Shown here: positions 10,574 to 27,310 of the stretch, piece after piece
How positions within the stretch are numbered: the first letter of the stretch is position 1
Layout: every line of letters begins with the position of its first letter
Assembly: GCA_019236735.1 (NCBI GenBank)
Contig: JAFAIM010000020.1
Coordinates: forward strand, 1 to 64,000
Direction: 5' to 3'
Source: Burkholderiaceae bacterium
GTDB lineage: Bacteria > Pseudomonadota > Gammaproteobacteria > Burkholderiales > Burkholderiaceae_F
DNA: 64,000 nucleotides
Position numbers and translations under genes: made by a program
Notes under the pieces: model-generated
What the model was told of the DNA's origin: nothing
What the model saw: the letters and a program-made list of their open reading frames with translations, nothing else
Databases searched by the model: none

Positions 10574-12150
10574 CCGTGAGTGCGGCGGCAGGAACGCCGC
10601 AATCACAGCCTGGTGCCGGTGCCGGAGCCGGAGCCGGTCTGATCGGCGCTGGCCACCCGCCTCGCCCGGGTCGCACATGGCGCAGGCTCGCGGTCGTGCT
10701 GCTGGCGATCGTGCTGGCGGTCAGGCTTGCCACGCTCGGCACCTACCCGCTGGCCGACACCAGCGAGGCGCGCTATGGCGAGATCGCCCGCGTGATGCGC
10801 GAGACGGGGAACTGGGTGACACCGCAGGAGACGCCCGGAACACCGTTCTGGGCCAAGCCCCCGCTGTACGCCTGGTTGAGCGCATCGGCCACCTACGTGT
10901 TCGGAGTCGACGAGTTCGCACTGAGACTTCCGTCGCTGCTGTGCGGATTCGCGGTGCTCGTGCTGTGCGGCCTTTGGGCGGGTGCACTGGCGCGGGAAGG
11001 CGAGCGAGACGATGCGGCGCTGCTGTCCCGCCTGGTCCTGGCTACCACGGTACTCTTTTTTGTCGGCTACGGCGCGGTGATGACGGATCCTTCGCTCGGG
11101 CTGTGCACTGCGTGGATGATGGTTGCGTTCCAGCGGGCAGTGATCGAGCGCAGCGGCGCGGCCGTCTGGCGCTACGGACTGTTCGTCGCTGCGGGACTGG
11201 CGATGCTGGCCAAAGGTCCGGTGGCGTTCCTCTATGTCGCCTTGCCTGCGGCGGTGTGGGCGACGTGGCGCCACCGATGGCACGAGATCTGGCAGACGCT
11301 TCCCTGGTTTGGCGGCATCGCGCTTTGGGCGGTGATCGCGCTGCCTTGGTACGCATGGGCCGAAGCGCGTACGCCGGGATTCCTGAACTACTTCCTTGTC
11401 GGCGAGCACGTGATGCGCTACTTGAAGCCCGGCTGGAGCGGCGACCGCTATGGCAACGCGCACATCGAGTTGCTCGGGACGATCTGGGCGTATCTGGCGG
11501 GCGCTGTCGGCCTGTGGGCGATTCCGGCGCTGGTCCTGGTACGTCCGCAGCGCGCTTGGCTCGAGCGGGCGCGCGAATGGTGTCGCGACGACGCTCGCTT
11601 GTTTGCGCTACTGGCAGTGCTGATTCCACTCGTGGTGTTCACGTTCGCCCGCAATCTGATTTGGACGTACGTGCTGCCGGTGCTGACGCCGCTGTCGGCG
11701 CTGCTCGGCGCGGAACTGGCGGCGCGCTGTTCGAAGGCGCCGACATGGCGCCGCTCCGTAGTCGCGGTCGCGACCGCCTCGGCGGCGCTACTGTGCGTGG
11801 CCGTGATCGGATGGGCGCCGCTGCGAGCCAATGGCAGCTCGTTTGCCGCACCGGTGGCCGCCTTGCGCCTGCGGGCGCAAGCGGATCCGCGTGCGCAGCG
11901 TGCATTGTGGTACTGGGGCCGCAAGATCCCCGCCTCGTTGCGCTTCTATTCGCGCGGCGCCGCCCAAGCGGCGCCCGAGCTGGACGCGCGGCTCGCTCAG
12001 TTGGTGCCGGGCGCGCGCGTCTACATTGCGATCGTTCCGGAGCAATTGGCGGGGCTGCAACAAGTGGCGGCGCAGCACAAACTCACCCTGACCGTGGTCG
12101 GCCAGGTCAAGCACGCGGCAATTGCCGAGGTCACTAAGTCAGCGCTTTAG
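10570..12150 (+). CDS. ArnT-like membrane glycosyltransferase (GT39/83, PMT superfamily)
   Basis: 526 residues with about ten to twelve membrane helices and a GTG start overlapping the previous stop. The first periplasmic loop has DTSEARYGEIARVMRETGNW and PPLYAWLSA, the signature of undecaprenyl-phosphate-sugar transferases such as ArnT, where the DTSE acidic residues are catalytic. A later loop carries KPGWSGDRYGNAH. Relatives transfer 4-amino-arabinose or other sugars from a polyprenyl carrier onto lipid A in the periplasm. No arn pathway genes are nearby, so the donor sugar is unknown. A second, divergent member lies at 61016-62761. Confidence 0.85.
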   Translation: MTVSAAAGTPQSQPGAGAGAGAGLIGAGHPPRPGRTWRRLAVVLLAIVLAVRLATLGTYPLADTSEARYGEIARVMRETGNWVTPQETPGTPFWAKPPLYAWLSASATYVFGVDEFALRLPSLLCGFAVLVLCGLWAGALAREGERDDAALLSRLVLATTVLFFVGYGAVMTDPSLGLCTAWMMVAFQRAVIERSGAAVWRYGLFVAAGLAMLAKGPVAFLYVALPAAVWATWRHRWHEIWQTLPWFGGIALWAVIALPWYAWAEARTPGFLNYFLVGEHVMRYLKPGWSGDRYGNAHIELLGTIWAYLAGAVGLWAIPALVLVRPQRAWLERAREWCRDDARLFALLAVLIPLVVFTFARNLIWTYVLPVLTPLSALLGAELAARCSKAPTWRRSVVAVATASAALLCVAVIGWAPLRANGSSFAAPVAALRLRAQADPRAQRALWYWGRKIPASLRFYSRGAAQAAPELDARLAQLVPGARVYIAIVPEQLAGLQQVAAQHKLTLTVVGQVKHAAIAEVTKSAL

Positions 12151-13353
12151 ACGCTTTGCTACCGGTGCGGCTCGTAGCCGCTGCGCCTCCGGCAGGCCGG
12201 ATCCGAGCAGCGGTTGCAGATAAGCGTGGAAGGCGTCGGTCACGTCGGTGCCGGACGGATCGATCAGGTGCTCCTCCATCACGCGCGTGCGGCCGGCGAC
12301 CGTTTCCAGCGTCGCGAGCTCGTAATCGACCGCGTATTGCCCGACCCGTTTGATCGAGACCGACCCGTCTCGGTCAGCCGACAGCGCGAAACGGACCGCA
12401 CGCTCACCGACCTCGAACGCCTCGCGCTGGTCGACGTCCGACACGCAGCCGGCGAAAGAGCGTTGCAGGTAACCGAACGTCTCTCCGCGCACCCGCTTGA
12501 TCCCGAGGCGGTCTCGAATCTGTGCGCACAGCGCGTCCGCCAGAGCGCCGGTGCCCGACAGCTGCACGTTGCCATGTGGATCGCGCTCGGCCGTTGGTGC
12601 GAGCTTCGAGACGATCGGCACCCCAGCGGCATCATGCACACCTTCGGACACGGCAACCACGCAGCGGCCGAGCCGCTCATGCACGGCCTTCACGTCCGCG
12701 ACGAAACGCTCCGGGTCGAAGGTGCGTTCCGGCAGGTAGATCAAATGGGGGCCGTCTGCGGGAAGCCTGCGCGCCAGAGTCGAAGCGGCGGTGAGGAAAC
12801 CGGCGTGGCGGCCCATCACGACCGCGACATAGACGCCTGGCAGCGATTCATTGTCGAGCGCCGCGCCAGTGAACGCTTGCACGACGAAGCGCGCCGCCGA
12901 TGGAAAGCCGGGCGTGTGGTCGTTGCCGACCAGGTCGTTGTCGATCGTCTTCGGGATATGGATGCACCGCAAAGGGTAGGCGCTCGCGCGCGCCTGCTCG
13001 CTGACGATGCGCACCGTGTCGGCCGAGTCGTTTCCGCCGATGTAATAGAAGTGGCTGATCTCGTGTGCTTTCAGGACCTTCAGCATCTCTCGGCAGTAGG
13101 CCGCATCCGGCTTGTCGCGCGTGGAGCCGAGGGCCGCACCCGGACTGCGCGCGACCGATTCCAGGTGAGTGAAGGTCTCGCTGGTCAGATCCAACAGATC
13201 CTCGTTCAGGATTCCCCGCACTCCATAGCGAGCCCCATACACCGTCTCGATTGCGGCGCTGTGGCGCGCGGCAAGGCAAACGCCTGCGAGCGACTGGTTG
13301 ATGACCGCAGTCGGACCGCCGCCCTGGGCGATCAGGATCTTGAGCGGGGGCAT
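12139..13353 (-). CDS. pfp: 6-phosphofructokinase, probably pyrophosphate-dependent
   Basis: 404 residues. The N terminus ILIAQGGGPTAVINQSL binds the phosphoryl donor, and the donor-site motif is GGNDSADT. The active-site string PKTIDNDL has the lysine typical of pyrophosphate-using enzymes, followed by DHTPGFPSAARFV. MGRHAGFLTAAS and LIYLPERTFD complete the sugar-phosphate site. It phosphorylates fructose 6-phosphate reversibly in glycolysis or gluconeogenesis. The start at MPPLKILI was chosen because family members begin just before the first beta strand. The gene converges on the ArnT-like gene, overlapping it tail-to-tail by 12 bases. Confidence 0.88.
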   Translation of the reverse strand: MPPLKILIAQGGGPTAVINQSLAGVCLAARHSAAIETVYGARYGVRGILNEDLLDLTSETFTHLESVARSPGAALGSTRDKPDAAYCREMLKVLKAHEISHFYYIGGNDSADTVRIVSEQARASAYPLRCIHIPKTIDNDLVGNDHTPGFPSAARFVVQAFTGAALDNESLPGVYVAVVMGRHAGFLTAASTLARRLPADGPHLIYLPERTFDPERFVADVKAVHERLGRCVVAVSEGVHDAAGVPIVSKLAPTAERDPHGNVQLSGTGALADALCAQIRDRLGIKRVRGETFGYLQRSFAGCVSDVDQREAFEVGERAVRFALSADRDGSVSIKRVGQYAVDYELATLETVAGRTRVMEEHLIDPSGTDVTDAFHAYLQPLLGSGLPEAQRLRAAPVAKRLKR

Positions 13354-13431
13354 GTCTCGGGCTCTGGAGGTGGCGGCTGGCATCTTACCGAGTGGCATAT
13401 CAGCCCGATTCGGAACGGGTGTTACAAGCCA

Positions 13432-16140
13432 CTACGCCAGCGCGCGCTCGACAATCTCGCGCACGTCGGCCGATAGCGACGGGTGCGCCGCCGCTTCTTG
13501 CAGTGCCTGCCGCATCATCCTCTGCCGTTCCGGCGGATGGCGGCGCCAGCGATCGAGAGCGCGCGCCAGACGAGCCGCCACGATCGGATTGATGCTGTCC
13601 AGCCGGATCACCTGCTCCAACCAGAACGAGTAACCCGACCCGTCGCTCTGGTGGAACTCGGGTGCGTTGTCGGTACAGAAAGCCACCACCAGCGCGTCGA
13701 CCGCCTGCGGGTCGCGCTCGCTGTAGGCACTGTGGCGCAATAGTGCATGCACGCGCTCCAGCACCGGTGGTTCGCCTGGCTGCCGAACTGCGGTCGCCTG
13801 AACCCGGAACCACTTGTTCATCAGCAGCGGCTCGGCATGCCAGTCGCGCGCGAGCTGCAGCAACAGGCCGGCTTTGGCGGCAGAGGCACTATTCACCAGG
13901 ACACTCAACGCCGCGTGGCGGTCGGTCAGGTTGTCGGCGCGCAACAGCTGCTGGCGCGCCAGCTCGATCGCGGCAGGATCGCTTCCCGCGGCCAGGTACT
14001 CGAGCGCCAGGTTCTTCAGCGCGCGAACACCCGCCGATATCGGGTCGGGTCGGTACGGACCAGCAACGTTCATGGAGCGGTAGGCCGCGTCCCATTGCGG
14101 ATACAGCTCGCGGCCGATCAGCTGCTGTAGTCGCAACCTGCTGCTGCGCACCGCTTCAGGCACGAGGATCGGCCGGGTTTCGGCCACGATGGATTCGGCC
14201 GGCAGTCGAAGCGCGACTTCGCGGAAGGCAGGTGCCAGCGCACGATCGAGCAGGGTGTCGCGCATCAGCGACACCAGCTGCGGATCCATCGCGACGGCGC
14301 TGTTCGACTCGATCGCGTCGGCCGCTGCCGACAGGCGGCCGATCAGCAGTCGCTGCAGTGCGTCCCAGCGGGCGCACGGGTCAGCGTCGTGCCGCGCCAG
14401 GAGCACGAGCTCGTCGTCGTTGTACGGATAATCGACGATGACCGGTGCGGAGAATCCGCGCAGAAGCGAAGGAACTGCCCTGGGTGGCACGTCGAACAGG
14501 CGCACGGTGTGCGCGGCTTCGCCCAGCTCCAGCACGCGCGTGAACTGGCCGCGCGGGTCGCCCGGATCGGTCTTGACCGGCAGCTGCGTGCCATCGGCGC
14601 CGACCAGGCCGATTGCAAACGGGATCAGAAAGGGCTCCTTGTCCCTCTGGCCGGGTGTCGCAGGGCAGCTTTGCACAAATGCGAGCTCGAGCGAGCGGGT
14701 GTCGGCGTCATACAGCGGACTGACCGCCACGCGCGGCGTTCCAGCCTGCTCGTACCAGCACAGGAATTGCCCGAAGTCGCGTCCGCTCGTCTGGGCGATC
14801 GATGCGACGAAGTCTTCGCAGGTGACTGCGGCGCCGTCGTGCTGCGCCAGAAAGTGCACAAGACCCCGGTCGAACGGCGCCTGGCCGGTCAACTGGGCCA
14901 GCATCCGCACCACCTCAGCGCCCTTGCCGTACACCGTCGGCGTGTAGAAGTTGTTGATCTCCAGGTATGCGTCGGGCCGTATCGGATGCGCCATCGGGCC
15001 GGCGTCTTCCGGAAACTGGTCTGCTCGCAGCGCACGGAACGCTTCAATACGAGGCACGCTGCACGCCGACTGAGCGGGTCCAGGATCGGCGAAGTCACGC
15101 TCGAGCATGTCGCGAACGAACTGCTGCTCGCGCCACACCGTCAAGCCTTCTTTCAGGCACAGTTGGAACCAGTCGCGGCAGGTCACGCGGTTGCCGGTCC
15201 AGTTGTGGAAGTACTCGTGGCCGACCGCCGCTTCGATTTCCGCGTAGTCGGCATCGGTCGCGATCGATGGATCGGCCAACAGGTACCGGGTGCTGAACAA
15301 ATTCAGCCCCTTGTTTTCCATCGCGCCGAAATTGAAGTCGCGCGCTGCGACGATCATGTAGCGGTCCAGGTCGAGCACCAACCCGAACCGCGTCTCGTCC
15401 CACCCGATGGCGCGCTCCAGGCTCCGCAATGCGTGTCCCAGTCGCGGCAGATCCGCCGAGGTGGCCCACAGTTGCAGGCGCGCAGTGCGGCCCCAGCGCG
15501 TATGGAACACCGACTCGCGGCACTGCAACTCACCCGCCACCAGCGCGAAAAGGTAGCTCGGTTTCGGGTGTGGGTCGTCCCAGATCGCGAAGTGGCGGCC
15601 ATCGGGCAGGGCACCTTGCTCGACCAGGTTGCCGTTGGACAGCAGTGCGGGAAAGCGGGCTTTATCCGCGCGTAGCTGCACGCGATAGCGCGCCAGGACG
15701 TCGGGACGATCCAGGAAGTAGGTGATCCTGCGAAAGCCCTGCGCCTCGCACTGCGTGAGCAGCATTCCGGAGGATGCGTACAGGCCCAGCAGCTCGGAAT
15801 TGTCCGACGGTTGCAGATGCGTGACGATGGTGAGCACGAACGAATCGGCCGGCGCAGTGGCGAGAGTCAGTCCGGCTTCATCGGCCTGGAACTGTTCCGG
15901 TCGCAGCTCGCGCCCGTCCAGGCGCAATGCGACCAGCTGCAGCCGCTCGCCATCGAGCCGCAGCGGCACGGTCGAATTCTGCGCCCGCCGTATATACAGC
16001 TGCGCCTGCACTTCGGTCGAAACGAGATCCAGGTCGAAGCTCAGGTCGACTTTTTCGATGCTGAACGGCGGCGGCCGGTAGTCGGTACGGAGCACCGGGC
16101 GGCGCGCCCCCGCCTGACCGCCTCGAGCCAGATTGCTCAT
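13432..16140 (-). CDS. pepN: Aminopeptidase N (M1 family)
   Basis: 902 residues, close to the usual 870-890 of proteobacterial PepN. The exopeptidase motif GAMEN occurs in NFGAMENKGLNLFS and the zinc site is HEYFHNWTGNRVTCRDWF with the downstream glutamate in LKEGLTVWRE. An ERAP1-type middle domain and a helical C-terminal domain with LRLQQLIG and YPQWDA follow. It removes N-terminal residues from peptides in the cytoplasm. The start at MSNLARGG was chosen because the longer frame upstream overlaps the response-regulator gene and encodes low-complexity sequence. It lies 31 bases after that gene and may be co-transcribed. Confidence 0.92.
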   Translation of the reverse strand: MSNLARGGQAGARRPVLRTDYRPPPFSIEKVDLSFDLDLVSTEVQAQLYIRRAQNSTVPLRLDGERLQLVALRLDGRELRPEQFQADEAGLTLATAPADSFVLTIVTHLQPSDNSELLGLYASSGMLLTQCEAQGFRRITYFLDRPDVLARYRVQLRADKARFPALLSNGNLVEQGALPDGRHFAIWDDPHPKPSYLFALVAGELQCRESVFHTRWGRTARLQLWATSADLPRLGHALRSLERAIGWDETRFGLVLDLDRYMIVAARDFNFGAMENKGLNLFSTRYLLADPSIATDADYAEIEAAVGHEYFHNWTGNRVTCRDWFQLCLKEGLTVWREQQFVRDMLERDFADPGPAQSACSVPRIEAFRALRADQFPEDAGPMAHPIRPDAYLEINNFYTPTVYGKGAEVVRMLAQLTGQAPFDRGLVHFLAQHDGAAVTCEDFVASIAQTSGRDFGQFLCWYEQAGTPRVAVSPLYDADTRSLELAFVQSCPATPGQRDKEPFLIPFAIGLVGADGTQLPVKTDPGDPRGQFTRVLELGEAAHTVRLFDVPPRAVPSLLRGFSAPVIVDYPYNDDELVLLARHDADPCARWDALQRLLIGRLSAAADAIESNSAVAMDPQLVSLMRDTLLDRALAPAFREVALRLPAESIVAETRPILVPEAVRSSRLRLQQLIGRELYPQWDAAYRSMNVAGPYRPDPISAGVRALKNLALEYLAAGSDPAAIELARQQLLRADNLTDRHAALSVLVNSASAAKAGLLLQLARDWHAEPLLMNKWFRVQATAVRQPGEPPVLERVHALLRHSAYSERDPQAVDALVVAFCTDNAPEFHQSDGSGYSFWLEQVIRLDSINPIVAARLARALDRWRRHPPERQRMMRQALQEAAAHPSLSADVREIVERALA

Positions 16141-16171
16141 CCAGCACCGGCGCGCGCAGCATGCCGCGCGG

Positions 16172-16957
16172 TCATCGAGCCGACTCGAACAACATGGTGA
16201 GAACCGCCTGGTTCCAGTATTCGATTTCGTGCAGGATCGTCTCGACCGCGCCCCACTGCTGTTGCATCGACAGGCTGTCGAGCTGTGCACACATCGCGGC
16301 AAGCTGATGGACGCCGAGGAATTCGGCCGCGGATCGCATCGCGCGCGCACCACAGACGAGCTGCTCCGCATCGTTCTCGGTCAGCGCCATTTTCATCGAT
16401 TCGATCAGCTGTTGTGAGCGCAGCGCGACCGATTCGGCGACGGTCGGCCCGAAGCCGCGCTCGGCGGCGGGCGCTTCCTGCAGGCGCCGGATCGTCGCTC
16501 GCAGCCGCTCGGCATCGGATTGCTCCGATGCGGGCGCCACGGGCGGACCGGCGCTCAACGCGCGTCGCAGCGCGATTTCGTACTTGTCGGCGTGGATGGG
16601 CTTGCTGACGTGATCCGCGAAGCCGGCCATCAGGCAGCGGACCCGGTCCGCCTCGGATGTGTAACCCGTGACGGCGATCACCGGGATCGGCGGGCGTTGC
16701 ATTGCGGCTTCGCGCTGGCGTAGCCGGCGCAGGGCCTCGAAGCCGCTCAGGCCGGGCATCCCGAGGTCCAGCAGGATCAGATCGAATTCGCCCGCGAGCG
16801 CGCGCTCGACCGCTTGTCCAGCGTCGGTTTCAACGCTCGCCCGATGCCCGAGCAGCGACAGCAGGTGCGCCTGTATCGAAGTCGAAAGCGGGTCGTCGTC
16901 GACCACCACGACCCGCGCTGATGCGCGCTGCTCGCCGGCTTCCGACTCGCTGTCCAT
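16172..16957 (-). CDS. Response regulator with degenerate HPt-like domain
   Basis: 261 residues. A receiver domain covers about 15-135, with acidic pocket D20-D22, phospho-acceptor D64 (LILLDLGMPGLSG), T97 and K119 (SKPI). The C-terminal part (about 170-255) looks like an HPt four-helix bundle: GARAMRSAAEFLGVHQL aligns with the AHxLKGSAxxLG motif. The phosphorylated histidine position is Arg205, so it cannot relay phosphate in the usual way. No histidine kinase is adjacent. It may be a scaffold or competitor in a phosphorelay whose other parts lie elsewhere. REC assignment is firm; the HPt reading is my inference. Confidence 0.8.
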   Translation of the reverse strand: MDSESEAGEQRASARVVVVDDDPLSTSIQAHLLSLLGHRASVETDAGQAVERALAGEFDLILLDLGMPGLSGFEALRRLRQREAAMQRPPIPVIAVTGYTSEADRVRCLMAGFADHVSKPIHADKYEIALRRALSAGPPVAPASEQSDAERLRATIRRLQEAPAAERGFGPTVAESVALRSQQLIESMKMALTENDAEQLVCGARAMRSAAEFLGVHQLAAMCAQLDSLSMQQQWGAVETILHEIEYWNQAVLTMLFESAR

Positions 16958-17061
16958 CCGCCACCCTCAGTGCCCGCGGCGCCGTTCTGGCCCGCGGCGC
17001 CGGGGAGGCACTCGGCCGCAACTATATCGCTTCGGGTGGCGCGTGCGCGGCCGTCCGCGCT

Positions 17062-17265
17062 TCAGATTACCCGGATCTGGGTGGCTTGCGGCCCCTTGGT
17101 GCCTGGTGCGACGGTGAACTCAACGCGTTGTCCTTCCTGCAGCGTCTTGAAGCCGTTGCCCTGGATCTGCGAGAAATGCGCGAAGAGGTCTTTTCCGCCG
17201 TCTTCTGGCGTGATGAAGCCGAAGCCCTTGGCTTCGTTGAACCACTTGACAGTGCCTTGTGCCAT
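17062..17265 (-). CDS. csp: Cold-shock protein, CspA family
   Basis: 67 residues, a single OB-fold cold-shock domain. It begins [18 protein letters not shown] with the RNP1 motif KGFGFI, and RNP2 is LFAHFS. The end [10 protein letters not shown] is typical. It should bind single-stranded RNA and DNA and melt mRNA structure. The ATG at 17265 was chosen over one 15 codons upstream because all family members start here. The leader contains two strong inverted repeats (see 17297-17326), which could regulate translation as in other csp genes. It is monocistronic. Confidence 0.95.
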
Positions 17266-17296
17266 TGTCTTTGCTGTCCTGTTGCCGAAAAATATA

Positions 17297-17326
17297 TGGA
17301 TGGGTTCCATCCCGGCACGTGCCGGG
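17297..17326 (-). promoter_or_regulatory. Two overlapping inverted repeats in the csp leader
   Basis: The perfect 16-base palindrome CCCGGCACGTGCCGGG (17311-17326) is directly joined to the inverted repeat GGATGGAACCCATCC (17297-17311). Read in the csp direction they are followed by ATATATTTTTC and then, after about 30 bases, the csp start codon. They could be an RNA structure in the 5' leader, an upstream terminator, or a DNA operator. Position about 30-60 bases ahead of the start favours a leader element. No experiment-independent way to choose among these is visible in the sequence. Confidence 0.4.
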
Positions 17327-17544
17327 ACGTGCGAGCGTCAAGTACGTTTACCGAGGGAACGGAGCCGCTAGCCGAAGAAAGTTCGTGGCCTGCGCAGCGA
17401 TCAGAGGGTCGAACGAAGCCTTAACGATTGCGGCGCGGAGCATACGCGATGGGCGACGCGCTGTCCAATGTACCCGCGCGCATCACGCGGCCGCGGGCCT
17501 GGGCGCGCACCGGGCGCGCGACCCGCTCTGACCCCACGTTCGCT

Positions 17545-18966
17545 TCAGCGCTCGCCGTGTCCGGTTTCGCCTTCTTTTGATTTCTCGCCCGGCTGCGGTT
17601 TCTCGTTTTGCTGCGGTTTCTCGTTCTGCTGCGCCCCGCCATTGCGTTTCGGTTCGCCCTGCTGCGCGGGAGTCGGCTTGTGCGCAGCGGCAGGCGGCTG
17701 CGCATTCGGCTTCTTCGGCGCCGGCGTGGTGCCTTCGGCTTTGTGCGCGGGAGTGCCCGCAGCTTGTGCCGGCTTCGCAGGAGCGTTGCGAGTTGCCTCG
17801 GTCGGCGGGGTTTGGTTCGCACGCGGCTCGCCCGCGTTGGCAGCGTTGGGAGCGTGAGGCGGTGCAGCGCGCGCCGGAGGCGCGGCAGTAGGTGGCATCG
17901 GCGCGGCAGCAGGTGCCATGGGCACTGGAGCCGGTGGCGGCATCGGCGCGCGGGCGGGTGTCGGCGGTACAGGCCCTTCGCGTTCTCGCGGCGGCTGCAC
18001 TACGGCATGAACCGTCTGCGGCGGCGGCAGCGAAGCCGCCGGCCGGCCGCGCTCGAATGCCGGAATCGCTTGCTGCTGTTGAGGCGGAGGCGCAGCAACC
18101 TTCACCACGGGCGCCAGAGCGGCAGCCAAGTGAGCTTGCGCCGGGACGATCGAATTGACGGCCTGCCTGTTCGCGGTTGCGCTCGCCGGCGCCACGATCG
18201 TCACGTTCGTGATGTTGGTCACGTTCGTCACGTTGGTGACGTTCGTGACGTTGTTGACGACCGTCGTGTTGTTGCTGTTCACATTGTTCGTGATGTGCAT
18301 CCCGACGTTGACGACGGGCGGCGCGCTTGTCACGACTGCGGGTGCGGTACCGATCGGAGCCGGCACGATGATTCCGTGGCGCGAGCCCGGCGGCGGCGGA
18401 ACGAACACGCCATCAGGACCGATGCAGCGCGGTCCGGGGATCGCATCGGGGCGCGGCCGCTCCAGCTCGATCACCAACGTCGGCGGCGGCGGTACGAACA
18501 CCACTTCGGCGCGGGCCCAGTGTCCGGTGACGAATACGACGTAGCCGCGGCGATTCTCGTAGTACGGTTGCACCCACACGTAGTCGGGCCGCGGTGCCTC
18601 GGCCCAGCGGCCGTAGTTCCACACCCACATGCCGTGCCATCCCCAGAACCCGCCGATCCAGATTGCGCCGACGAACGGTGGCGGAGGAGGTTCTTCGACC
18701 AGCATCGGAGGAGGCGCCCACGGAACCTCGATCGGCGGTGGTTGATCGATCGGCGGGTCGACGTAAACGCTGACGACCGGTGGTGGTGGCTCCGGCTGGT
18801 AATCGGTTGGCGCAGCTTCCTCCGGTGGCGGAGGCGGGGGCGGCGGTTGGTACGCGGCTGGAGCGGGCGGAGGCGCCGGCGGCAGGCTATAGGTGGGAGG
18901 TGGCTGCTGATATACGACGCAGCCAGCGGTCAACAGTGCCAGGGCGAGCGACAGTCTGCTGTACAT
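17545..18966 (-). CDS. Proline-rich YXWGXW-type lipoprotein with NVT repeats
   Basis: 473 residues. A lipoprotein signal MYSRLSLALALLTAGC places the acylated cysteine at 16. Then come long Pro-rich runs, a short domain with GAIWIGGFWGWHGMWVWNYG and WAEAPRPDYVWVQPYYENR, which resembles YXWGXW repeat proteins, and a central asparagine/threonine/valine repeat (NVTNVTNVT). The C-terminal 230 residues are Pro/Ala-rich, ending in short Gln/Asn/Glu/Lys repeats. Likely an outer-membrane-anchored surface or periplasmic protein; no function is known to me. The extreme composition makes the frame convincing only because of the signal, the WGW domain and the uninterrupted length. Confidence 0.7.
   Translation of the reverse strand: MYSRLSLALALLTAGCVVYQQPPPTYSLPPAPPPAPAAYQPPPPPPPPEEAAPTDYQPEPPPPVVSVYVDPPIDQPPPIEVPWAPPPMLVEEPPPPPFVGAIWIGGFWGWHGMWVWNYGRWAEAPRPDYVWVQPYYENRRGYVVFVTGHWARAEVVFVPPPPTLVIELERPRPDAIPGPRCIGPDGVFVPPPPGSRHGIIVPAPIGTAPAVVTSAPPVVNVGMHITNNVNSNNTTVVNNVTNVTNVTNVTNITNVTIVAPASATANRQAVNSIVPAQAHLAAALAPVVKVAAPPPQQQQAIPAFERGRPAASLPPPQTVHAVVQPPREREGPVPPTPARAPMPPPAPVPMAPAAAPMPPTAAPPARAAPPHAPNAANAGEPRANQTPPTEATRNAPAKPAQAAGTPAHKAEGTTPAPKKPNAQPPAAAHKPTPAQQGEPKRNGGAQQNEKPQQNEKPQPGEKSKEGETGHGER
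18190..18262 (-). repeat. Tandem repeat coding for NVT units
   Basis: A near-perfect repeat of about nine bases, variants of GTCACGTTG/GTCACGAAC on the coding strand complement, runs for about seven units inside the YXWGXW-type lipoprotein gene. It encodes repeated Asn-Val-Thr, with one Asn-Ile-Thr. Such an array could change length by slippage without shifting the frame, because the unit is a multiple of three. Confidence 0.6.
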
Positions 18967-19097
18967 AGTCCCCTCTCAATGCTTCCTGCTGCCGGCGACG
19001 ATTACGAAGCGGCGCAATCCTTTTGAACGTTCGGGCGGCCGACCAGATGACCTCGGCCGCCGCCATCGTGAATCCATTTGTAACCCGGTCGAGCGAC

Positions 19098-20531
<1,434 letters not shown>

Positions 20532-20758: not shown

Positions 20759-21658
20759 TCAAAGCAGCGAGAAAATGGCCTCGGCGAAACGTTGAGGCGC
20801 TTCCTGCGGAACGTTGTGTCCGATCACAGGAATCACCTCGCGCCGGTACGCGCCAGTGAATCGACGTGCGGCCAGATCGCTTCCGCCCGCGGGCAGCACG
20901 GAATTGGCCTGCCCGTGCAGCGCAACGGTGGGAACTGTGATGGCGGGTTGAGCCGCTAAGCGCCGCTCGATCTGCTCGAGCGCGGGGTCACCCGCTGCGA
21001 GCCCGTAGCGGTGCCGATACGAGTGGATCACCACATCGACAAAATCCGGGTTCTCAAAGGAGGTGGCGGTGCGATCGTAGGTCGAATCGTCGAACTGCCA
21101 GTTCGGCGACCACAGCTTCCACAGCAGTTTGCACAAGTCGTGGCGGTTGTTTGCCAAGCCGTTGCGGCCGCGCTCGGAGTGAAAATAGAACTGGTACCAG
21201 TAGCGCAGCTCGTATTCCGGCGCCTGCGGCTGCATCGACGCGGCGATATCGTGGATGTTGTAGCCATCGTTTCCGCACGACACCAGCGCTTGCACGCGCT
21301 GCGGCCAGAGTGCCGCGACCACGCACGCGGCGCGCCCACCCCAGTCGTATCCGGCCAAAACGGCTTTCTCGATTTGCAACGCGTCCAATAGCGCCAGAAG
21401 ATCGAAACCGAGCGCGGCCTGCTGACCCGAACGTGGAGTCTGCTCTGACAGAAACTGGGTTGGCCCGAAACCACGCAGGTACGGTGCGATCACGCGGCAA
21501 CCGGCCGTCGCCAGGATCGGCGCGACCTCGTCGTACGCATGCACGTCGTACGGGAAGCCGTGCAGCAGGATCACTGGCGCGCCGTCCGGCCCCCCGACCT
21601 CCCGGTAGGCCACCTCCAGAAGGTTGGCCTTGCGTCGTTTGAGTGTGCGGTCAGGCAC
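20759..21658 (-). CDS. Alpha/beta hydrolase, epoxide-hydrolase-like
   Basis: 299 residues. Oxyanion-hole motif HGFP is at 33-36, and the nucleophile elbow is GYDWGGR with aspartate D105 rather than serine. The aspartate nucleophile and the adjacent tryptophan mark epoxide hydrolases and haloalkane dehalogenases; the HGFP motif favours the former. The catalytic histidine is in VIGHNVPQEAP near the C terminus. The cap domain has RYWYQFYFHSERG. The start overlaps the end of the thioesterase-GNAT gene by eight bases, so both are likely co-transcribed. Physiological substrate is unknown. Confidence 0.85.
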   Translation of the reverse strand: MPDRTLKRRKANLLEVAYREVGGPDGAPVILLHGFPYDVHAYDEVAPILATAGCRVIAPYLRGFGPTQFLSEQTPRSGQQAALGFDLLALLDALQIEKAVLAGYDWGGRAACVVAALWPQRVQALVSCGNDGYNIHDIAASMQPQAPEYELRYWYQFYFHSERGRNGLANNRHDLCKLLWKLWSPNWQFDDSTYDRTATSFENPDFVDVVIHSYRHRYGLAAGDPALEQIERRLAAQPAITVPTVALHGQANSVLPAGGSDLAARRFTGAYRREVIPVIGHNVPQEAPQRFAEAIFSLL

Positions 21659-22658
21659 TCTTGCTCATCGGCAGGAACTCGATGCTCAGCCCCGGCTCGA
21701 GTTGGTATTGCACCGGCGCGCCTGGCTGGTAGCCCTGCGAGCGGTAGAAATCGACGCCGGACAGCATCGCCATCAACTCGAAACGGCGAAACCCGCTGCT
21801 ACGCGCTTCGGCCTCGGAACGCTCCAGCAGAGCGCGGCCGATGCCCTTGCGGGCCCAGGCCGGGTCGATGAAGAAGGCGCGGATCTTCGCGGCGTCGCGC
21901 GTCGGGTTCAGTTCGGCCGAATCGCGGTGAGCCTGCGAATCGCCACCGAACAGCGTGCGACGCTTGCTCCATCCGCCGCAGCCGACAATCGCCCCGTCGG
22001 CCTCGGCCACCAGATACGTGCCGTCACGGATCAGCTGTGTGTCAACGCCGAATGCGGCGCGCAGTGCGGTCTCGACCTGGCGTGGCGTGTACGCTCCCAG
22101 CGTCAGCGCGCGAGCGGAGCGGGCGATGAGGCTTTCCAAAGCGCCGCGGTCGTCGAGCGTCGCCTTGCGCAGCGAAAACGGCGCGTCCGTCGCTGTCCCG
22201 TGTGGCGACGAAGCCGTCGTCCGCACTGTCGGCATTGCGGCGCCGGCGAACCGCTTCAGGCCATCGACGGCGGCCGCGGAAAACGGCTGCGACTTGCGCG
22301 TCTCATCGTTGACCTGGACTATGACGCTTTCGGCGCGCCCCACCAGCCGCCCGTCCTGGAACAACGCTTGCTCCAGCCGAAGGGAACTGCGTCCGATCGA
22401 TTGCACGCGAGTACCGATGTCGACGCGACCGGGCCAGAGGATCTCGGAGACGAAGTCCACCTCGAGGCGCGCGATCACGAACGAGCAGCCCGGATCCATC
22501 AGCGGCTTGCCGTCCCGGTACGCCAGTTCTACCCGGCCGGTCTCCAGCAGCGTGGTGAACACGGAATTGTTGATGTGGCCCTGTCGGTCCGTGTCGCCGT
22601 AGCGCAGCTTGTCGTACGAGCGCAGCGGAAAATCTTCCAGCCGCACGGATGCAGCCAT
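21651..22658 (-). CDS. Hotdog thioesterase fused to GNAT acetyltransferase
   Basis: 335 residues, two domains. Residues 1-140 form a 4HBT hotdog thioesterase: YGDTDRQGHINNSVFTTLLETGR carries the aspartate of the active site. Residues 165-335 form a GNAT domain: FSLRKATLDDRGALESLI, YLVAEADGAIVGCGGW, and the acetyl-CoA loop IDPAWARKGIGRALLE. Fusion of an acyl-CoA-cleaving and an acyl-CoA-using domain is uncommon. The ATG at 22658 fits the start of hotdog proteins, with the purine-rich GGGAGAGCGGTCG ahead of it. It lies 62 bases after the tail-tube gene and overlaps the following hydrolase gene. Confidence 0.85.
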   Translation of the reverse strand: MAASVRLEDFPLRSYDKLRYGDTDRQGHINNSVFTTLLETGRVELAYRDGKPLMDPGCSFVIARLEVDFVSEILWPGRVDIGTRVQSIGRSSLRLEQALFQDGRLVGRAESVIVQVNDETRKSQPFSAAAVDGLKRFAGAAMPTVRTTASSPHGTATDAPFSLRKATLDDRGALESLIARSARALTLGAYTPRQVETALRAAFGVDTQLIRDGTYLVAEADGAIVGCGGWSKRRTLFGGDSQAHRDSAELNPTRDAAKIRAFFIDPAWARKGIGRALLERSEAEARSSGFRRFELMAMLSGVDFYRSQGYQPGAPVQYQLEPGLSIEFLPMSKSA

Positions 22659-22720: not shown

Positions 22721-23113
22721 TCAAACGACGCAGACCGCGTCGAACGAGGCAACCGATAGTTCGAGCGTCTCGATGAGCGTTTCTGCCGACGTTGCATTCA
22801 GATCCGACAGGCGGTAGGCCACCGGCTCCGCGCCCGCGAAAGTCCAGCGCCACGCCGGCTTGCCGCCGGCATCCATCAGTACGACGACAACGATTTTGGC
22901 GGAGGAGTTGCCGGAGCGTGGGGCGGAATCCCACCACACGTACCACTCGGTGTTGTCGGTTAGGCCTCGTTGCACGATCAGCGCGCCGTACTGCACGGAC
23001 TCGACATCGGTGCGCCGGAAAAGACGCGCTTCTGGCAGCACCACCGCTGCGGCGCTGCTCGCCGAGAGGCCCTCGATCTCGACGCGGAACCTGGCGCCGA
23101 CGAACGGATCCAT
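22721..23113 (-). CDS. Phage tail tube-like protein (gp19/TIGR02241 family), second copy
   Basis: 130 residues starting [16 protein letters not shown]. The family layout is kept: an N-terminal strand FRVEIEGL, then RGLTDNTEWYVWWDS, a strand KIVVVVLMDAGGKPAWRWTF, and a C-terminal SDLNATSAETLIETLELSV. This is the fold of tube proteins in contractile tails and extracellular contractile injection systems. It is more divergent than the first copy and shorter in the N-terminal half. The ATG overlaps the stop of that copy by one base (TAATG), so the two are coupled and probably made in fixed ratio. No sheath, baseplate or ATPase gene is nearby. Confidence 0.8.
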   Translation of the reverse strand: MDPFVGARFRVEIEGLSASSAAAVVLPEARLFRRTDVESVQYGALIVQRGLTDNTEWYVWWDSAPRSGNSSAKIVVVVLMDAGGKPAWRWTFAGAEPVAYRLSDLNATSAETLIETLELSVASFDAVCVV

Positions 23114-23559
23114 TACACCCGTTCGATTCCTTCGTTGGCGAGCTCGAGGGTCTCGATCAGCACCTCGTGGCCTCGCCCATCTAGATCGCTCACGTGGTAC
23201 TTCATCGGCCATGCGTTGAGCACCTTGAAGCGGGCGCATTCATTCCCGGCCTCGTCGAGCACGACGATCGTCACGGTTCGGCGCGCCACGGCCATGTTGC
23301 CCGCTACCACCTCGCTGATCCATTGGTACAGATCGAGCGCACCCGTGACGCCCGTACAGACGATGCCGCGGCGCAACGTCACATCGCCGTAATGCGTCAG
23401 GCCCGGCAACTTTCGCACGTGGGTCGCCTCGCTGCCCGCGCGGTACTCGATCACGTCGATCGTGATCGACCCGATCGACACTTCGCTAAAGGCAATGTCC
23501 GGCAAGCCGCCAATTTCGACGAGAAAGCGGAAGTTGCGTAGCGGATCGTTACGGGTCAT
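23113..23559 (-). CDS. Phage tail tube-like protein (gp19/TIGR02241 family), first copy
   Basis: 148 residues. It begins [18 protein letters not shown] and has [44 protein letters not shown] and the C-terminal [24 protein letters not shown], all canonical for the conserved phage-tail region family. In phages and injection systems such proteins stack as hexamers to make the inner tube. A good ribosome binding site (AAGGAGAG) sits seven bases before the ATG at 23559. The gene is divergent from hmgA, with 144 bases between them. Function without a sheath is unknown. Confidence 0.88.
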
Positions 23560-23703
23560 GGATCTCTCCTTACTGTCTTCATGTCGACCACGCAAGCAAT
23601 TCGACCGCGGTGGCACTCCCCAAGACGGATTTTGATATGCCGGCCCGACAATGTCAGGCCCCAGTACCATGTCGCATTCGCACCTATTGGTGAGGAAGAT
23701 GCG

Positions 23704-26437: not shown

Positions 26438-27310
26438 TTAGAGCAGCGCGTCGATGCGTTCCAGCGCTTCCCGCGCACCGAGCGGCAGCGCGACTCCGGT
26501 CAGCTGCAATTCTGCTTCGCGCGGGTTGATGCGGATCAGCGCAGCCTTGCGATGGATCGCCACCCGGTGGCCGAACTGTCGGATCGTCGGCAGTGCGGTG
26601 CCTGCGCCGCATTCGATCACCACCGGGTGCTCGACTTTCTCCAGCCAGGTATTGAATACCGCAGTCTGGTCCGCCGACCGCTGCGGCACCCATCGATGAT
26701 CGCCGAACATCAAAACGTTCGGCCTTGCAAGCTTGCCGCAATGAGGGCATTGCGGCGCCTCCGACAGCAGCAGACAGTGGACTTCATCGATCACAGGATC
26801 AAAGCCGTCGGCCGACCATATCTCTTGGCGGCACGGTTGCAGACACTGCAGGTTGTGGACCGAACCGTGAATCTCGCTTACCCGCGAAGCGCTGAATCCT
26901 GCCTTCTGGAATTGGCCATCGACATTGGACGTGACCGCGAAGGCGCCATGCGGCTTGGCGGCAGCCCACGACTGGAGCAGATGGAAGCCTGCATGTGGTT
27001 CGGTGCGACGGTACATCTGCAGACGGCGTCCGTAGAAGCCCCACGCGAGGGAGGGGCGTGCGGAGAACTGCTCGGGAGCGGCGATTTGCACGAAGCGCAG
27101 CTTTGCCTGCCCGAGAGCTGGATACGCGCCCCACAGACCCTCCGTTCCGCGAAAGTCGGGCAATCCGGAGTCCACACCCATGCCGGCGCCGGCGGTGATG
27201 ATGATCGCATCGGCACGCTCGATCAGTTCGGCGGCCCGCTCGATCAGGCGTTCGAGTTGCGTGGAAGTGACCAGGGCGAGAGATCCTCTTTGCGTGGACC
27301 GGAATACCAA
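26438..27310 (-). CDS. Sir2-family NAD-dependent deacylase
   Basis: 290 residues. The NAD site is GAGMGVDSGLPDFRG, followed by AWGFYGRRL. The conserved TQNID position reads TSNVDGQFQKAG, and the catalytic histidine is in SEIHGSVHNLQC. The zinc ligands appear as CLQPC and CPHC. The C-terminal part has NVLMFGDHRW and ECGAGTALPTIR. This form, with SNVDGQFQ, belongs to a bacterial branch distant from CobB, so deacetylase activity is an inference. Start choice is uncertain; the ATG at 27310 gives about 14 residues before conserved sequence. It is divergent from the next gene with only 24 bases between starts. Confidence 0.85.
   Translation of the reverse strand: MVFRSTQRGSLALVTSTQLERLIERAAELIERADAIIITAGAGMGVDSGLPDFRGTEGLWGAYPALGQAKLRFVQIAAPEQFSARPSLAWGFYGRRLQMYRRTEPHAGFHLLQSWAAAKPHGAFAVTSNVDGQFQKAGFSASRVSEIHGSVHNLQCLQPCRQEIWSADGFDPVIDEVHCLLLSEAPQCPHCGKLARPNVLMFGDHRWVPQRSADQTAVFNTWLEKVEHPVVIECGAGTALPTIRQFGHRVAIHRKAALIRINPREAELQLTGVALPLGAREALERIDALL

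Follow-up and report, generated by a model that had tools for sequence, protein, structure and literature searches.

The gene pair described here lies on the minus strand of a window of 64,000 nucleotides (the whole stretch of DNA that was analysed, C14:1-64000) in a draft genome of 3.32 Mb that consists of 95 contigs and is 95.4% complete. The two genes, termed A and B, both have open frames (Table 1), and their coordinates, strand and one-base TAATG overlap are exactly those given in an earlier note on this DNA. That note had also claimed a strong ribosome binding site for the pair, which holds for A, where AAGGAGAG stands four bases 5' of the ATG, and does not hold for B, whose sole candidate, AAGGA, is found 14 bases 5' of the start. 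Because B has no ribosome site at a normal distance, its translation is probably coupled to that of A. The GC content at third codon positions is average for both genes and the coding signal is ordinary; ranked from the lowest coding score per codon, A was 41st and B 22nd among the 48 window genes of at least 120 aa. Downstream of the pair lies the thioesterase-GNAT gene that had been named as its neighbour (window 21651-22658), in which a 4HBT thioesterase domain fused to an acetyltransferase domain was found and for which a separate promoter-like match was obtained. A SIR2-family gene (window 26438-27310) is located about 3 kb from the pair.

Table 1. Features of the tube gene pair in the window and partner genes of gp19 at other loci without a sheath match.
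Feature	Sequence	Positions	Strand	Remarks
Gene A	window	23113..23559	-	CIS1-like tube protein (gp19), 148 aa, hairpin intact
Gene B	window	22721..23113	-	tube-fold protein, nearest CIS5/Afp5 adaptor, 130 aa, hairpin lost
Overlap of stop A and start B	window	about 23112..23116	-	one base, TAATG; minus-strand count 23115-23111
Beta2-beta3 hairpin of A	window	23389..23466	-	codons 32-57; model strands 32-39 and 49-57
Shortened hairpin equivalent of B	window	22988..23029	-	codons 29-42; model strands 29-34 and 37-42; pLDDT <50 at residues 30-34
Ribosome binding site of A, AAGGAGAG	window	23564..23571	-	
Promoter-like match 5' of A	window	23629..23657	-	consensus match alone
X	L046	9821-10222		
X	L048	10393-10761		
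X	L050	946-1401		
X	L054	109-516		
X	L056	7486-7917		
gp19/GH19/132-aa trio	L053	8499-10107		
gp19/GH19/132-aa trio	L061	7834-9442		

Both proteins belong to the gp19 family (PF06841, cut-off 28.2 bits), to which A matched as a full-length member (140.4 bits, 4e-41, residues 8-146) and B over residues 38-123 (61.4 bits, 1e-16). The TIGR02241 type that had been proposed together with gp19 was verified for A (132.8 bits), while B stayed slightly under the cut-off (59.9 against 62.4 bits). Scores against the CIS1 and CIS5 equivalogs of NCBIfam for contractile injection systems (CIS) were 60.0 and 72.5 bits for A and 27.2 and 45.6 bits for B, far under the cut-offs of 220 and 260. The proteins closest to B by sequence are Afp5 (1e-8) and then Pvc5 (1e-7). 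AlphaFold2 monomer models based on 21-sequence alignments reached pLDDT 79 and pTM 0.70 for A and pLDDT 75 and pTM 0.72 for B, and the two models match CIS tube proteins, in line with the tube-like nature first suggested for them, with a moderate superposition on solved tubes (TM about 0.5-0.6, rmsd 6-9 Å). Foldseek returned 7b5h_AN (1.3e-9) and 7adz_1a as the best matches for A; the top five for B were 7aeb_Y (3.7e-7), 6rao_F (Afp5), 9qgl_5A, 6j0n_n (Pvc5) and 7b5h_AM (All3323), which are adaptor-type tubes. For B, the top VIA-align hit was Pvc5 (Z 11.8; rmsd 4.5 over 123), and Hcp chains scored less than one Z unit apart from it, so that CIS5 and Hcp are not separable by fold alone, and the putative assignment of B to CIS5 rather than Hcp is made by sequence similarity. 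A is nearest to CIS1-type tubes and B to the tube adaptors Afp5 and Pvc5.

The two proteins differ in the beta2-beta3 hairpin. To count this feature, we took 76 gp19 proteins with lengths of 100-260 aa from the surveyed loci and aligned all of them to a single tube profile; duplicates, fragments and a 297-aa protein of genome G137 were left out, the latter for its length and also from the tree. A segment of 23-24 residues, typified by VxEYREG....VRKLPG, is kept in 72 of the 76 proteins, including A, and the four exceptions are exactly the B proteins of the four A+B pairs described below. In the window B the segment is down to 12 residues. For the B protein of G323 no residue was aligned (the profile alignment begins past the segment, and a separate alignment is likewise gapped there), and in the B proteins of G219 and G398 the segment is swapped for a sequence rich in Ala, Thr, Ser and Pro. 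A class-wide search with a B profile matched 24 of 369 genomes, and loci from 11 of the 24, G803 included, were examined. In a six-frame control on the class, which shares few proteins with the set of 76, 42 distinct proteins including the window A and B were aligned, and the segment was kept in 38 of the 40 others. The remaining two, from G799 and G803, are each encoded directly upstream of a hairpin-bearing tube gene, so that B precedes A there, and the six-frame scan found no other CIS profile within 19 and 18 kb, respectively. Judged by eye, the replacements in the B proteins of G219, G398 and G799 are unrelated in sequence and similar in length. Hairpin loss is tied to pairs without a surrounding CIS for six of six hairpin-less proteins from several lineages, a small number of cases of which three were judged by eye.

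The genome was then considered as a source of the remaining machine. PF06841 matched this pair only. The best genome-wide sheath match (PF04984) reached 14.2 bits against a cut-off of 31.4 (E 0.055), baseplate J (PF04865) had zero matches at E 10, and gp25 (PF04965), a family that includes the T6SS subunit TssE, gave 12.7 bits where 27.2 were required. A complete injection system elsewhere in the genome, which the earlier note had named as an outcome that would speak against its view, was thus searched for by gp19, sheath, baseplate J and gp25 without being found in the 95.4% complete draft, and this candidate was dropped. As wrong gene calls were left in some loci (e.g. L045, L057, L062, L138), the absence of CIS parts was rechecked in six frames with 15 CIS profiles built from 17 loci. 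Across the window and the last 10 kb of the contig (L044) only A and B were matched, the PAAR-like profile being unmatched in the window, which agrees with the claim that no other tail gene is present there. The same scan of a Rhizobium CIS locus (L066) served as positive control and recovered sheath, baseplate, gp25, LysM and other parts. A and B are firmly established as an orphan tube-fold pair.

Such loci recur within the order. Among 399 genomes sampled, gp19 was detected in 65 and a sheath match (E 0.01) in 95; a comparison of the two tables by hand identified 16 of the 65 genomes that have gp19 and no sheath match, 11 of them at least 90% complete, and the surroundings were taken from all 16. 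The recurrence of sheathless gp19 loci in this order is a firm result, and these 16 genomes make a tube gene alone an unsafe basis for calling a CIS. Besides tube genes, a six-frame scan of the 16 loci yielded only weak AAA-ATPase matches (G219, 2e-5; G398, 3e-5). An A+B pair is found in four genomes (the window genome G000, G219, G398 and G323), none of which has a sheath match genome-wide. G323, at 100% completeness, consists of one 5.4-Mb contig, and the start of its B gene may overlap A as GTGA. In G398 (L060 10089-14508) an ABC transporter gene and an HlyD-type gene precede the pair on the same strand; the upstream genes of G219 differ. Five genomes (G018, G076, G104, G189 and G231) instead pair gp19 with X, a protein of 122-151 aa. 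Two members of X that were checked had no Pfam or NCBIfam match, PHROG gave weak matches to a family of unknown function (0.00032 and 0.06), and the search for a solved relative reached a best E of 0.5 with one sequence and 0.1 with a profile. A profile of the five members detected X in 5 of the 399 genomes, each time adjoining gp19 and without a sheath match, and gave no match in the window genome. In G174 and G418, which have no sheath match either, gp19 is accompanied by an endolysin-like lysozyme of the GH19 family and by a protein of 132 aa that matched nothing in Pfam. Neither the five X pairs nor the two GH19 loci contain B. Other arrangements are present in G078, G137, G359, G396 and G447; since the contigs of G076, G189 and G447 measure 3-4 kb and the G078 locus is at a contig end, these four tell little about neighbours.

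Further arrangements of gp19 were seen during the survey. In G787, from another order of the same class, a lone gp19 gene with the hairpin (L134 9283-9729) has no other CIS profile in 19 kb. In G007, near a contig end (L045, about 16750-17820), gp19 is followed by a frame that by eye resembles a CIS7/LysM-type protein. Several CIS clusters (L076 9432-15719, also L077, L078, L081, L083, L135 and L136) have sheath and tube genes in alternation, two of each.

Assembly of phage and CIS tubes is generally begun by a baseplate or tip complex. The reading that we favour, with a probability of a little over two in five, is that of a retained tube pair in which A stacks and B replaces the baseplate as a starter or end ring. 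A and B would be CIS-derived tube proteins that were kept without the machine; A, with its hairpin intact, would form hexameric rings that stack, and B, with its hairpin lost, would form rings that have no grip on the next ring at that side. If B rings started or capped the assembly, a short cytoplasmic tube, or just a double ring, could arise without a baseplate, and the gene overlap would hold the ratio of A to B constant. We infer stacking for A, ring formation for B, an interaction between the two and any role in the cell. One study on phage tubes describes the beta2-beta3 loop as the largest inter-ring contact and reports that without it T5 formed no tubes and SPP1 showed no growth from ring to ring (PMC8718954). 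The hairpin of YSD1 also restrains self-assembly according to a second study, in which its deletion gave ring-like objects (PMC7385642), and a third reports that a phage tube protein by itself forms tubes in E. coli (PMC6466441). By analogy with the phage deletions, a natural hairpin-less protein should give rings and no propagation. The self-assembling tube is, in a modified form, the best fit among the roles offered by the earlier note. The loss of the hairpin in B, the likeness of B to adaptors and the sheathless gp19 loci in other families go beyond that note.

The remains of an injection system, another role offered at the outset, form a serious rival for the window genome. A CIS would have been lost by rearrangement with two tube genes left, B already degenerating, an outcome that we rate as rather unlikely. 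The window genes from 12139 to 20531 and the GNAT part of the thioesterase-GNAT gene are collinear with the congener G001, which at that place has neither the pair nor the alpha/beta hydrolase nor the thioesterase part; its relatives of hmgA and fumarylacetoacetase are found elsewhere with no gp19 beside them. Rearranged segments meet at the pair or close to it, as would suit a remnant, and both a gain in the window genome and a loss in G001 are compatible with this arrangement. As the GNAT part of G001 has no thioesterase, the two domains may have become fused at that junction. A conserved neighbourhood was rejected because G001 shows no linkage of gp19 with thioesterase-GNAT or hmgA. Two outside sources of A were also rejected: 6 of 50,697 phage records match A, all from Streptomyces phages at 33-34% identity, and 83 of 72,556 plasmid records match, of which the four examined lie inside CIS clusters.

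The tree places the window A among the CIS1 tubes of complete systems, with 52% identity to that of the complete Rhizobium CIS (L066), and the window B with CIS5-like tubes at weak support (61) and on a very long branch (1.42), which would also be expected under relaxed constraint. The identity of A, the long branch and deletion of B and the absence of the pair from close relatives are all counted for a remnant; open frames, the strong ribosome site of A, the coupled start, ordinary codon use and the same hairpin loss beside intact tube genes elsewhere are counted against it. The A proteins of G323 and G219 share 78-80% identity with a tube protein from the G139 CIS, which has two sheaths, and the B proteins of G323, G219 and G398 cluster with a G447 tube protein that has kept the hairpin. 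Since the window B stands apart from these three, and the B proteins of G799 and G803 are each other's best match, the B proteins are not one clade and the hairpin was probably lost more than once. On these sequence relationships, the pairs were not inherited as a single module, and their A and B proteins stem from different tube lineages. This mixed descent, the long branch of the window B, the reversed gene order in G799 and G803 and the lack of B at the X and GH19 loci weigh against the retained tube pair.

Selection was estimated by the NG86 method in three within-genus comparisons, in which dN/dS ranged from 0.02 to 0.30 overall. For the A+B pairs of G219 and G398, dN/dS was 0.014/0.289 = 0.05 for A, 0.036/0.366 = 0.10 for B and 0.047/0.453 for the neighbouring amidase. 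Between G104 and G189, A (0.166/0.695) and X (0.177/0.583) evolved faster than the neighbouring thiolase (0.060/0.749), and the A proteins of G174 and G418 gave 0.003/0.137. For B of G323 and G219 (0.557/0.94) the divergence is too great to interpret. Purifying selection was observed in all three within-genus comparisons, including the A+B pair of G219 and G398, and this argues against decaying remains at the related loci where selection can be measured. The window pair is missing from the sole sampled congener, G001, and sits at a rearrangement junction, both of which weigh against its retention.

The equal nearness of the B fold to Hcp chains and CIS tubes in VIA-align is compatible with a ring-shaped carrier, in which mixed or single rings of A and B would hold a client protein in an Hcp-like manner without forming a tube. 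A Bacteroides Hcp2-Hcp3 heterohexamer (9vne), cited in PMC13323088, sets a precedent, and X occurs regularly as the partner of other gp19 genes without a sheath; the stacking hairpin retained in A and the window without a linked client gene make such a carrier improbable. That the pair belongs to a CIS whose remainder lies in the unassembled 5% of the genome is more improbable still: the draft of 95 contigs is 95.4% complete, which leaves room for it, and yet tube genes are found inside the cluster in the CIS loci examined and the complete single contig of G323 has an A+B pair with no sheath match. The defence protein DSR2 is activated by tube proteins. An anti-phage decoy or sensor bait, a tube mimic that would spoil tail assembly or engage a defence protein, could draw on the SIR2 gene 3 kb away and on DSR2, presented in PMC10973363 as a defence sirtuin that phage proteins modulate, and is scarcely credible given that A, B and the SIR2 protein have no PADLOC match and that A has its few, distant relatives in 6 of 50,697 phage records; nothing was found in favour of the decoy role raised in the earlier note.

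Returning to the retained tube pair, a wider version of this reading is rather unlikely: CIS tube proteins would have been domesticated repeatedly into stand-alone cytoplasmic tubes or rings, with a hairpin-less paralogue of more than one origin as starter or terminator, and X and GH19 would mark versions with other partners. The titles and abstract openings of the open-access literature that were searched contained no description of stand-alone gp19 pairs. If true, the natural two-gene unit would offer a minimal system for the analysis of nucleation and length control, and CIS parts would be reused outside injection.

Compared with known systems, A and B are alike in sequence and predicted fold to the tube CIS1 and adaptor CIS5 of extracellular CIS (Afp1/Afp5, Pvc1/Pvc5, All3324/All3323); in contrast to these, no sheath, baseplate J or gp25 was found here, the genes overlap directly, B is without the hairpin and both proteins score under the equivalog cut-offs. 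The orphan hcp islands of T6SS also place tube genes, including hcp-hcp pairs, away from the machine, as outlined in PMC13098142. They are thought there to supply the T6SS with effectors, whereas the present proteins are of the gp19 family and the gp25-family match of the genome is under its cut-off. The Bacteroides Hcp2-Hcp3 heterohexamer (PDB 9vne) likewise combines two tube paralogues, and a shared ring of A and B is possible by the same token, but Hcp2-Hcp3 belongs to a T6SS and the mixing of A with B is hypothetical. The hairpin-deleted tail tube protein of YSD1 (PMC7385642) resembles B in having a tube fold without the hairpin; it was produced in the laboratory by deletion from a siphophage protein, whereas B is a natural protein of the CIS type.
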